Positions 17,164-32,418 of a stretch of DNA of 62,894 nucleotides are shown piece after piece; position 1 is the stretch's first letter, and each line of letters opens with the position of its first letter. The translations under genes and the position numbers were made by a program. The notes under the pieces were generated by a model. It saw only the letters and a program-made list of their open reading frames with translations, had not been told where the DNA came from and ran no database searches. Source of the stretch: Nephromyces sp. MM_2019 (lineage: Eukaryota > Apicomplexa > Aconoidasida > Nephromycida); NCBI GenBank assembly GCA_015657535.1, contig JADHZB010001650.1, forward strand, positions 1 to 62,894, given 5' to 3'.

Positions 17164-20100
17164 ATGAAAACTGCTGAGACCGTGAAGCTCCAAAACTTAA
17201 TGCCGGGAAAAAAAGAAGCACTGAGAGAATCTTCCAAAAGAAATATGGATAGCAATGCAGCTTCAGGCTTTTTTCCAGGCGCAAAATCAAAGCAGCGTAG
17301 GACATCGAGCTATTCACTCAGCTGGAATTTAGAAATAAAGCAATCTAGAAGTTCTAATAATGTAGAAGCTAGAAAAGGATTTGCTTTTTCCTCTAGCGGA
17401 GACGAATCTGTTTTGCCTTCTGCTGAAAGAAGGGAGCATGATAATTTGTGCTTGTCCGGTGGGATAAAACGCTTTTTTTAATATCATAAAATTTTTGTTA
17501 TTACTGCAGCCCACTACTCCTTAAAATTTTGAAAGAAAAAGCGCCTTGTTTGTACAGTCACGAATTTCTGATTTATTTTGAATTAACTGCGCATTTAAGC
17601 ATAAAGTTTGAAAAATTGCTATGTTGAGAGTGATTCGAGCAGTCAAAATTGCACATGATAACTTAATTTTGAAACCATGAAAACGTCAATATTATAGCAA
17701 ACTACAATGTCTGCTTTTAATAAGGAATCATTCTCTTTGATTCAATGATCGTTAAGTATAGCATCTTTCCATTTTTTTTAATAGGAATTTTTGTGATGAC
17801 CTCTGTATTTATTTGGAATAGGTTTATCATTAAAAAATATAATGTTGATGATTTCAGCTTAGTTTGTCGAACATAATGACATCAGTCGCTTTGCCAGCGT
17901 TAAATTTGGCATATTTTAGTGTTTATTCCCTTTGAACACAACGCGCGAAAGGATTCATTTTCAAACTAATCCTTAGAGGCACTGCTTGCTTTTGCTATAC
18001 TATAAATAAGTACGTCGAAAAAATACCGTAAGAGCTAGGCCATTAACTTTTAAATAAAAATTCTTAGGGGTTAAAATTGCTTTTGGTTTTTGAGCTACTC
18101 AAGTGATAAGGATAAGTAACGCTTTGCTGGTGTGACTTCTCGACAAAATTTCAAGCTATAAATGTAAATTTTTTAATGAATTTTGCTCTTTTAAGATTTA
18201 TATAACGAATTGCGCAAATTCATCAGCTTGAAAAATATCCTTCAATACCTTTAGAATTTTTGTTTTATTAAAATTGAGTTAAGCTTTCCTAGATGAAATA
18301 TATATTGGTAAAATATAAGGGGTTTGCAAATTCTTTTTTAAAAAAGAAACTTTAAAGCAGAATGCTAGTGAATAGCAGTGAATAGCAGTGAATGCTATTG
18401 AATGTTCATTAATGCTAGTTAATGTTAGTTATTTACAATATATATTTAGTGTGCTCGAACTTTTCAGATTTTTGCCAAGTTATACTAGCCAAGATTGCAA
18501 GGTTTCTTGGCCCTAAATGCTTTAGAGAAGGAATCCTGTGCACCAATCGATACTGGTGTCATCGCTTACGCTTTGAATCGGACCTAATTTGGTCTTTGCT
18601 AAAAAATAAATATGGCTATTCCTGTGTGGTATCACATCATAAAACATCCCAAGTTTTTTCACAGCGTAGATCAAAGGTATAAAATTTTACATTGAACCGA
18701 AATGGAAAAAGAACTATTTTGACGCTTTGCACATTAAGCACATTTGCTATGAGTAAATCATTTAAAGTTGAAATGAGTAAACTACATGTTAATGCATTGT
18801 AAGAATATTGTTTTGAGCTCTGCTTGACCCCTAGAGTACATAGAATTATATTTAGGTGGGCATTTTTCATGTTTTAAAGCCTGCATACTAGATTACAATT
18901 TTTTATCAAAAGGTTTGGTCAGCACCTACCTTTAATGACACCCATTTGTTTTTGTATCAAATAAAATTCCAATATATAGTTTGCTAGGATATTTCTTTTA
19001 TGAAAAAATGGGTTTTGTACGAGTTCAAAATCAGGCCAAATAACTTCAAGGACTTTCTAAATGCGTAAAGCGTTAAATTAACTGCTGAAACAGCAAAAAA
19101 AGAGTTTTAAAAATTGAATCAAATCATTGAAAAAATAACTGTGAAAAAATCTGCTTGACCCTTGTGTGTTTATTTTTTTTTTATGCTGTCTTCCAGGGAA
19201 CCATGCAGGTTGCCTTTGACTTGCAGACTGGTGAACCGGTGGCGATTCGTACGATTGATCTTGAAACGGCAAACGGAGGTCGGGATGATGGAGTTCCTAC
19301 GTCTTTCCTTAGGGAAATTGCTATTTTGAAAAATCTTAGCCATGATAATTTGCTAAAGCTCCATGGGGCTGAAATGAAAACCGATGGGCAAGGATATGAA
19401 GAAGCTCAAAGGCTAGAATTGGAATTGGAAGAAAAATTAGGCTGCAAAAGGATAGAATCCATGAAAAAAAGCGAATTAGTGAAACTAAAGAATTTCATTG
19501 GACGAAAAATGATGCTTGAACTAAATAAGAAGAGGAAATTACATAAAAAGCTGTTACTCGGGATTCCGGAGCTTATCGAGCAAAGGGTAATATTATTGGA
19601 GAAATTTTGGTATTTGAATGACTTTAGTGTTGGGGTTTTTTTTATGTCAATTAGTTTTGAATTTTCTTACTCCCTCTTTATGTGCATAGCATATATACTA
19701 AATTTTAGTATGGCGAATGAATTCGATTATGGTTTTTTCATAGTATTTATCGCAAACCTTGCCTTTCAAGTTTACAATGAAAAATTTATAGAAATGATGA
19801 TTTTGTTGGGTGGAGCAGATACTTTGCTTCAAAGACAAACAAAAGCGCAAAATTGGCAAACACACATACATACACACGTGTGTGTGATGAGTATATTGAG
19901 TATCTTGAATTTGAATTCTCTGTAGTATTTTTTGAGATCAATTGGTTCGTTCAGGTATTTTTATAGGTTTTGATACAGAATAGGTTAATTAAGGTAGATT
20001 GACTGATGATAATGATGTAGAATGGCCTATATATGACAAACTTGAAGAGCATACGCGCTTCCTCCCATAATCTCCATATAGAGAAATTTTGGTTAAAAAG

Positions 20101-32100: not shown

Positions 32101-32418
32101 CTGGGAGATATTCAAGAGGCAGCAGTTTCTCTAGCTCTCAAAAATTTCTTGGTTTTTAAAGAGTTACACTGCAAAGAAAATTCTTTCAGAAGTGTATCAA
32201 GGTGCTTTCACTATATAGAGGAAATGATGAAAAGCGACTGTCACCTTCATGGAGAAGGATTACCCCAGGTCGATGCAATAATTTTAAAAGATTTATATAC
32301 ACAGGGGCTGCATCATAGTCTATTCACTTCGATACCCGTCGGCTCTAGAATGTATCGATTAATTCTAAGTGACGTAGAATGTCAGAAAATGAGATATTAT
32401 CTTACGGAGGCAGTGTAA
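17164..32418 (+). CDS. CDK-like (pseudo)kinase joined in frame to a cyclin; ten-exon model
   Basis: Exons: 17164-17458, 18468-18676, 19197-19586, 20770-21694, 23683-23964, 24851-25143, 26494-26557, 26957-27057, 28511-28754, 30329-32418. All have GT-AG borders and matching phases (1,0,0,1,1,0,1,0,1). Total 4,893 nt, 1,630 residues. Residues ~160-798 are a CDK-type kinase: R186 replaces the VAIK lysine, PTSFLRE (202-208) sits at the PSTAIRE helix, HRN 526-528 replaces HRD, DLG is at 587-589, YRAPE at 623-627, FPKW at 710-713, HPFF at 794-797. Residues ~850-935 and 961-1045 are N- and C-terminal cyclin boxes (NEFNLKPQTLHLGIELFEEF; FSVNEISQMEESMLKKL). The basic tail to 1630 has no known domain. 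Kinase and cyclin identities are firm. That they form one protein is inferred: unspliced exon 6 ends at a stop (25162-25164), and the cyclin could start at ATG 27010. Least certain are exons 1-2, the exon 4 start (20879 is also in phase) and exon 7. Confidence 0.6.
18361..18432. repeat. 10-bp tandem repeat in an intron
   Basis: About seven imperfect copies of AATGCTAGTG / AATAGCAGTG just before exon 2 of the kinase-cyclin model. Confidence 0.7.
19197..25143 (+). other. Kinase-domain segment of the 17164-32418 gene
   Basis: Exons 3-6 carry the CDK-like kinase. The N-lobe (exon 3) keeps TGEPVAIR and the alpha-C glutamate in LRE, but only one glycine of the GxGxxG loop can be placed. Between alpha-C and the hinge lies an insertion of about 270 residues with charged coiled-coil-like and Ser/Asp-rich parts. 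The hinge reads KIYSEYCTLNLKDFM. The catalytic loop reads HRNLKPEN, the metal-binding motif is DLG, and the activation segment ends YRAPELLL. In CDK2-like alignment the T-loop threonine position is a tryptophan (SWRE for YTHE). The sequence KVDLWSVGVLLLE, the GTP motif and LVFDVKKRIDARECLEHPFF complete the C-lobe. Confidence 0.85.
21808..21915. repeat. CA/CAGA-rich microsatellite in an intron
   Basis: ACACAGACAGACAGAGAAATACAAACAGACAG-like repeat about 115 bp after exon 4 of the kinase-cyclin model. It lies in an intron of 1,988 bp. Confidence 0.75.
25286..25416. repeat. 18-bp minisatellite in an intron
   Basis: Seven near-identical copies of CACACACAGAAATACAAA, with GAGATACATA variants, about 140 bp downstream of exon 6. 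It yields long open frames on both strands because the unit length is a multiple of three and lacks stops; these are not genes. Confidence 0.9.
25546..25638 (+). repeat. 93-bp sequence, left copy flanking the N gap
   Basis: This segment is repeated without a mismatch at 25689-25781, directly after the run of Ns. Its end abuts the gap. Confidence 0.95.
25639..25688. other. Assembly gap (50 N)
   Basis: Exactly 50 unknown bases inside the intron between exons 6 and 7 of the kinase-cyclin model. Identical 93-bp flanks suggest that two overlapping contigs were scaffolded rather than merged. Confidence 0.97.
25689..25781 (+). repeat. 93-bp sequence, right copy flanking the N gap
   Basis: Identical to 25546-25638. 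It starts on the first base after the gap. Confidence 0.95.
26957..30645 (+). other. Cyclin-box segment of the 17164-32418 gene
   Basis: Exons 8, 9 and the start of 10. EIYPEL|INRLMLIKNEFNLK aligns with helix 1 of the A/B-type cyclin box, and QTLHLGIELFEEFI with helix 2. LSLAALAALKIADVFNE aligns with helix 3, where most CDK-binding cyclins have a lysine in 'ASK.EE'; here that lysine is absent. After a Ser/Thr/Asn-rich loop of about 25 residues, FSVNEISQMEESMLKKLKLD matches helix 5, including the glutamate after Met. The second box continues through SSYADLCGF to QCILLLCACKFF. Confidence 0.85.

Follow-up and report, generated by a model that had tools for sequence, protein, structure and literature searches.

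Gene structure

The window (the whole stretch of DNA that was analysed; 62,894 bases, 36.6% G+C) belongs to an assembly of 48.3 Mb. On its forward strand we rebuilt a gene of ten exons, in which a CDK-like kinase is followed by a cyclin:

Exon 1, 17164..17458, forward strand: N-terminal stretch; open frame with a putative start codon; its donor phase (1) suits exon 2
Exon 2, 18468..18676, forward strand: F-box-like region, based on a profile match and a 7-row alignment; family motif QRRSK(G) at its end
Exon 3, 19197..19586, forward strand: kinase N-lobe, with beta-3 VAIR (Lys to Arg) and a PSTAIRE-like PTSFLRE helix
Exon 4, 20878..21694, forward strand: start uncertain; a long insert, then the catalytic loop HRNLKPEN and DLG
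Exon 5, 23683..23964, forward strand: activation segment (YTPE^DPRDRDRS.., ^ marks the intron position), APE and kinase C-lobe
Exon 6, 24851..25143, forward strand: end of the kinase C-lobe (..ARECLEHPFFK)
Scaffold gap, 25639..25688, no strand: 50 N within the intron between kinase and cyclin; the flanks overlap exactly over 93 bases
Exon 7, 26494..26557, forward strand: linker; SHMQW aligns with SHMVW of the relative P0001
Exon 8, 26957..27057, forward strand: beginning of the cyclin fold
Exon 9, 28511..28754, forward strand: cyclin box with the family motif LKIADVFNERSQEYYK
Exon 10, 30329..32418, forward strand: remainder of Cyclin_N, a cyclin-C-like stretch (to about 30670) and a long, poorly conserved tail

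An earlier note on this DNA had described one stop-free frame of 1,630 residues. The frame is indeed open, with one stop, at its end, but the ten exons translate into 1,594 residues. Four alternative borders are possible between exons 3 and 4; they yield frames of 1,593 to 1,607 codons, stop counted, and none of these frames has more than one stop. The exon numbering of that note, which implied six exons up to 25143, agrees with the six recovered here (17164-17458, 18468-18676 and the four kinase exons). A direct join of exon 1 to 19197 was rejected because of a phase mismatch, which exon 18468-18676 solves. Donor 19609 was left unused, since in a reading by hand it leads to a stop with each of the acceptors 20808, 20814 and 20817.

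The kinase part matched the Pfam Pkinase domain with an E-value of 5.8e-36, and its nearest sequence in the PDB was CDK2 (3.7e-25). The cyclin part matched Cyclin_N at 3.4e-6 (27.2 bits vs a cut-off of 23). Pfam gave nothing for exon 1 up to an E-value of 1, and it called no Cyclin_C in the window. The match of the cyclin-region profile in the window begins only at the cyclin box, and the linker exons were left unmatched.

The proposal that kinase and cyclin lie in one in-phase frame was borne out, with kinase exons up to 25143 and cyclin exons from 26494: the junctions 25143/26494, 26557/26957 and 27057/28511 all have GT-AG borders and agreeing phases. Between 25165 and 26956 there are 28 phase-compatible open exons that could bridge the two parts. 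Scored by a generic splice consensus written from recall, exon 26494-26557 ranked first (13.1), followed by an exon with the same donor and a later acceptor (11.6) and then by one with a score of 2.3. The Trp of its SHMQW motif is invariant across the 7-row alignment. The assembly gap inside the kinase-cyclin intron calls for caution about the join. When the stretch flanking this gap was compared with the assembly, 96 matches were found, namely the stretch itself, 26720-26798 and, for the rest, sequences in the tandem-repeat part.

The family of related proteins

A search with the spliced protein returned 89 matches, of which the best six (806-894 aa; E 8e-54 to 7e-50) carry both Pkinase and Cyclin_N; at the seventh match the E-value dropped to 5e-15. 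From a second search, with a profile of these six, we took 94 rows (P0090-P0183) among the best 120 of 136 matches as family members, and one more (P0204) came from a third search with 8 matches. The family set chosen among the matches listed thus comprises 101 rows (P0001-P0006, P0090-P0183 and P0204). P0007-P0089, P0184-P0203 and P0205-P0209, which had far lower scores and no Cyclin_N in their domain lists, were left out of the family census.

Relatives with both domains, for which a search had been suggested, proved to be numerous: according to precomputed Pfam lists, 96 of the 101 listed rows have Pkinase and Cyclin_N. The pair was not in the lists of P0146, P0149, P0150, P0159 and P0167; P0146 and P0150 are short and have no cyclin domain. 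Our own Pfam scan of 56 relatives at E 0.01 called Pkinase and Cyclin_N in all 56, Cyclin_C in 51 and F-box-like in 47. In all 90 listed rows that show both HRN and the cyclin signature, HRN lies upstream. Ten listed rows (P0002, P0005, P0094, P0107, P0128, P0147, P0149, P0157, P0159 and P0167) are named as transcripts or transcriptome peptides, which makes a gene-prediction error unlikely in these cases.

Organism names are given for a minority of the listed family rows. The named sources are ciliates (Blepharisma stoltei, Stylonychia lemnae, Halteria grandinella and Paramecium pentaurelia), dinoflagellates (Effrenium voratum, Polarella glacialis and Symbiodinium microadriaticum) and the apicomplexan Cardiosporidium cionae. 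No Phytophthora member was found among the family rows listed. The source of P0175 is given as a bee. In a 24-row tree the window protein clusters with a second copy from the same assembly (C944), the Cardiosporidium protein, P0175 and P0176 in a supported group (100/99), distinct from those of the ciliates and the dinoflagellates. A number of end branches in this tree are long, including those of the window protein and C944. Identity to the C. cionae protein is 31% for the window protein and 34% for C944.

Loss of catalytic residues

Both catalytic positions inspected in the window kinase are degenerate (VAIR and HRN). A census was taken of 102 aligned rows, the 101 listed relatives and the window protein. 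The catalytic Asp of the HRD motif is replaced by Asn in 101 rows, and the remaining one (P0151) has a gap there. The letters HRD occur in 4 rows, always outside the catalytic column. The beta-3 Lys is Arg in 91 rows, Lys in two (P0156 and P0177), Met in one (P0204) and a gap in eight. Two other residues are retained: the alpha-C Glu is present in 95 of the 95 rows with a residue at that position, and the DFG Asp in 100 of 102 (1 Asn, 1 gap), so nucleotide binding by the pseudo-CDK is possible. Among five other loci of the assembly, three kinase loci have HRD, C944 has HRN and one cyclin locus is without such a loop.

On these residues we predict that the CDK of the window protein is catalytically dead. 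The earlier note had reasoned that covalent pairing would take away cyclin abundance as a separate level of control; as a statement about a working CDK, this finds no support, because almost every family row that can be aligned has substitutions at two catalytic positions. An HRN loop is also found in the pseudokinase HER3 and an Arg for the beta-3 Lys in KSR, both of which belong to other kinase groups and are not known to have a cyclin or F-box.

F-box region and cyclin part

When the 2,092 ORFs of the window were compared with an F-box profile of 87 relatives, the ORF of exon 2 was the best. This is a weak match in the expected place, with an E-value of 0.00063 with its RRSKG end and of 0.075 without it, so an F-box in the window protein is considered only likely. 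The relative P0155 matched F-box-like at 1.2e-11 in Pfam and, with its N-terminus, FBXW7 in the PDB at 4.9e-4. The F-box part of C944 alone matched the family F-box profile at 1e-6 (one protein searched). At E 0.01, Pfam called no F-box in C944, the Cardiosporidium protein or P0002. Taken across the relatives, domain matches firmly indicate an F-box in much of the family. A Skp1 gene is present in the genome. A cullin search of the genome gave no match, and since nothing matched anywhere, it is uninformative.

The cyclin had been assigned to the A/B type, and this holds by way of the relatives. Judged by its PDB matches (cyclin A2 1.6e-32, B1 2.4e-27, cyclin F 1.7e-17, 9cb3_A), the cyclin part of P0155 is of A/B type. 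The window's own cyclin, searched alone, had no significant PDB match: every one of the 39 sequences found at E up to 1 comes from a cyclin A entry, a Skp2-cyclin A construct among them, and none lies below 0.08, which is why the label rests on relatives. In the available text of PMC6971155, a Lys paired with a Glu is taken as defining for cyclin-CDK binding. The cyclin signature is present in 90 rows (12 are without it), and in these the CDK-contacting Lys column holds Val (77), Ile (4), Leu (3), Ser (3), Cys (2) or Ala (1) and never the Lys of PMC6971155, whereas the paired Glu, placed by the register of a cyclin A2 alignment, is invariant in a 14-row alignment. Of the 102 rows, 23 retain an MRAIL-type docking patch; the window protein lacks it.

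A second copy in the assembly

The second copy, C944, encodes an F-box-like region, an HRN kinase and a cyclin in four exons (L016 2329-3163, 3239-3756, 3821-3895 and 4055-4690) in one frame of 687 residues. The distance from the kinase end to the cyclin exon is 299 bp, and the gene contains no N. Two intron positions, with their phases, are common to C944 and the window gene: the one within the activation segment (YTPE^D, exon 5) and the one at the kinase end. The G+C content of C944 is 31% and its introns are shorter than those of the window gene, and for these reasons it may be an old paralogue or come from another species in a mixed assembly.

Both this second copy and the relatives from other species speak for the single-chain fusion. 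For this organism, we infer from the sequence that one transcript carries both kinase and cyclin.

Comparison with known systems

CDKs and cyclins are textbook separate partners, and cyclin F (FBXO1/CCNF) combines an F-box with a cyclin and is not known to have a kinase domain. In nature, Skp2, CDK2 and cyclin A are likewise separate proteins, and the CDK is active. The window family resembles cyclin F in carrying F-box and cyclin in one chain, and the cyclin F entry 9cb3_A is among the PDB matches of P0155, but in the window family a pseudo-CDK lies between F-box and cyclin. The Blepharisma and Stylonychia members are labelled Cyclin-F by their source. There is also a likeness to SCF-Skp2, in which an F-box protein goes together with cyclin A (PDB 7b5l contains Skp2 and cyclin A2 chains, and 7luo is a Skp2-cyclin A2 construct); the window family differs from SCF-Skp2/CDK2-cyclin A in being one chain with a predicted dead CDK.

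The earlier note knew of no well-characterised natural single-chain pair. CDK-cyclin fusions as a kind have been in print since 2010: Judelson and Ah-Fong (PMC3019232) described four Phytophthora infestans CDKs with C-terminal cyclin domains and checked them by RT-PCR. The accessible text of that paper gives no functional test. According to the same text, subdomain VIb has Asn instead of Asp in all four fusions; relatives are named from other oomycetes, Paramecium, Tetrahymena and Theileria annulata, and none was found in P. falciparum, T. gondii and two diatoms. Of the features described there, the window protein shows a CDK-like kinase, an in-frame C-terminal Cyclin_N and the subdomain VIb Asn (HRNLKPEN), and it departs from an active CDK in having Asn for the HRD Asp and Arg for the beta-3 Lys. 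Compared by description, the Phytophthora proteins have the same order, kinase before cyclin, and the same Asp to Asn change. The difference is that many members of the window family have an N-terminal F-box, whereas the word F-box does not occur in the available text of PMC3019232, which also does not name dinoflagellates among the relatives.

In a study of Symbiodiniaceae CDKs and cyclins (PMC7686383), sequences were trimmed to the annotated CDK or cyclin domains, and the words 'F-box', 'fused' and 'fusion' are absent from its accessible text. The accessible parts of PMC10006092 and PMC5510908, on apicomplexan F-box and cyclin proteins, describe no such fusion. Within the open-access literature searched with a few exact terms, we did not meet the F-box, the beta-3 Arg, the dinoflagellate spread or the window member.

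Proposed function and alternative explanations

The sequences themselves show the domain order, the reading phase, the kinship and the fact that the catalytic Asp and beta-3 Lys are no longer there. With moderate confidence, we propose that the window protein belongs to a pseudo-CDK-cyclin family in which a predicted dead CDK is part of what is likely a substrate-recognition subunit of an SCF ubiquitin ligase. In this model, the F-box region would bind SKP1 and thereby bring SKP1-CUL1, while the pseudo-CDK and the cyclin would pack against one another in cis and provide a surface where substrates can dock. A bound substrate would then be ubiquitylated. Such a protein would act like a cyclin F into which a dead CDK has been built, or like a covalent Skp2-CDK2-cyclin A without kinase activity. 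Several observations count against this reading: the window protein has a weak F-box and no MRAIL patch, Pfam calls no F-box in the Cardiosporidium protein, C944 or P0002, the cyclin-region profile leaves the linker exons unmatched, the window's cyclin alone has no significant PDB match, an assembly gap lies in the kinase-cyclin intron, and the retained alpha-C Glu and DFG Asp would allow nucleotide binding.

The strongest alternative, which we nevertheless regard as rather unlikely, is a pseudo-CDK-cyclin scaffold without SCF. It would bind and hold substrates or CDK regulators, serving as a decoy or as an allosteric partner, and in the apicomplexan branch its F-box would have decayed. The weak F-box of the window protein and the lack of a Pfam call in C944 or Cardiosporidium would fit this idea, as would nucleotide binding through the conserved alpha-C Glu and DFG Asp, but F-box-like regions were called in most of the scanned relatives, and C944 does match the family F-box profile.

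It is very improbable that the window gene arose by duplication of a gene like C944 and has since diverged and begun to decay. Its end branch is long (1.6), it has long inserts, and in the tree C944 groups with Cardiosporidium while the window protein lies outside; however, all ten exons are open and in phase, and the residues invariant in the family are retained. Equally hard to credit is a self-sufficient active CDK that would be switched on in cis by its own cyclin part. The kinase does have a PSTAIRE-like helix and the Glu within it, the DFG Asp and the catalytic-loop Asn, but we rejected this reading on the residues: all 101 rows with a residue at the catalytic Asp position have Asn, 91 of 94 have Arg in place of the beta-3 Lys, and the CDK-contacting Lys of the cyclin is missing from every row with the signature. 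Least probable of all are two neighbouring genes, suggested by a stop at 25164 in the unspliced kinase frame, an ATG in exon 7 at which the cyclin could begin and the scaffold gap between the kinase and cyclin exons, a reading we rejected because the relatives are single-chain, with rows named as transcripts among them, the compact C944 copy has one gap-free frame, and the Phytophthora fusions were checked by RT-PCR (PMC3019232).

Returning to the pseudo-CDK-cyclin protein as a likely SCF subunit, all alignable rows lack the catalytic Asp, and nearly all lack the beta-3 Lys, across ciliates, dinoflagellates and apicomplexans. Because these losses are family-wide and an F-box stands in front in 47 of the 56 scanned relatives, the sequences suggest that the CDK-cyclin fold has a conserved use here other than as a kinase. 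More tentatively, the family may represent an ancient alveolate ubiquitin-ligase receptor made of an F-box, a dead CDK and its own cyclin, in which the kinase would serve only as a structural clamp for the docking face of the cyclin. If this is true, the cell would destroy, rather than phosphorylate, what a cyclin-CDK would bind.

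A second gene copy and family members elsewhere

The assembly from which the window was taken contains another gene of the same domain composition, on contig C944 (numbered stretch L016):

L016 2329-4690 (G000:C944:32828-35189), second F-box-like/pseudo-CDK/cyclin gene

This gene has a G+C content of 31%, short introns and a compact layout, and its group partner was the family member of Cardiosporidium, not the window copy. The C944 gene may be a paralogue, or it may come from a second species in a mixed assembly. Among the database relatives of the window protein, the row P0175 is labeled as the bee Hylaeus volcanicus; because it was nevertheless grouped with the apicomplexan rows, its sequence likely represents a contaminant or a parasite within the bee assembly. 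The CDK-site-like motif [ST]P.[KR] was present within the N-terminal 110 residues in 67 of the 93 family rows with a Met start, and was absent from the first 110 residues of the window protein.

Other features of the window

The remaining features of the window comprise putative coding sequences, repeats and a scaffold gap:

25286-25416, 7.3 tandem copies of the 18-base repeat CACACACAGAAATACAAA
25639-25688, 50-N scaffold gap with an exact 93-base repeat on its two sides
37982-39871, phosphoglycerate-mutase-like ORF of the histidine phosphatase superfamily (Pfam His_Phos_1, 3.6e-5, a weak match)
48721-49083, minus strand, ABC transporter exon (Pfam ABC_tran, 1.3e-9)
60452-61008, GTGTGTCA-type array of low complexity
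62569-62894, tandem array of a 63-base unit (5.2 copies with 98% similarity), reaching the contig end

The ORF preceding that of the phosphatase (37122-37604) gave no match in the Pfam scan; it contains FIRHGES, which we take to be the usual motif of the histidine phosphatase superfamily. The GTGTGTCA-type array gives a long open frame reading CVSVCVSV, and arrays resembling the 18-base repeat are present across dozens of contigs of the assembly. The gap and its flanking repeat look as when two contigs overlapping by a word are scaffolded without being merged.
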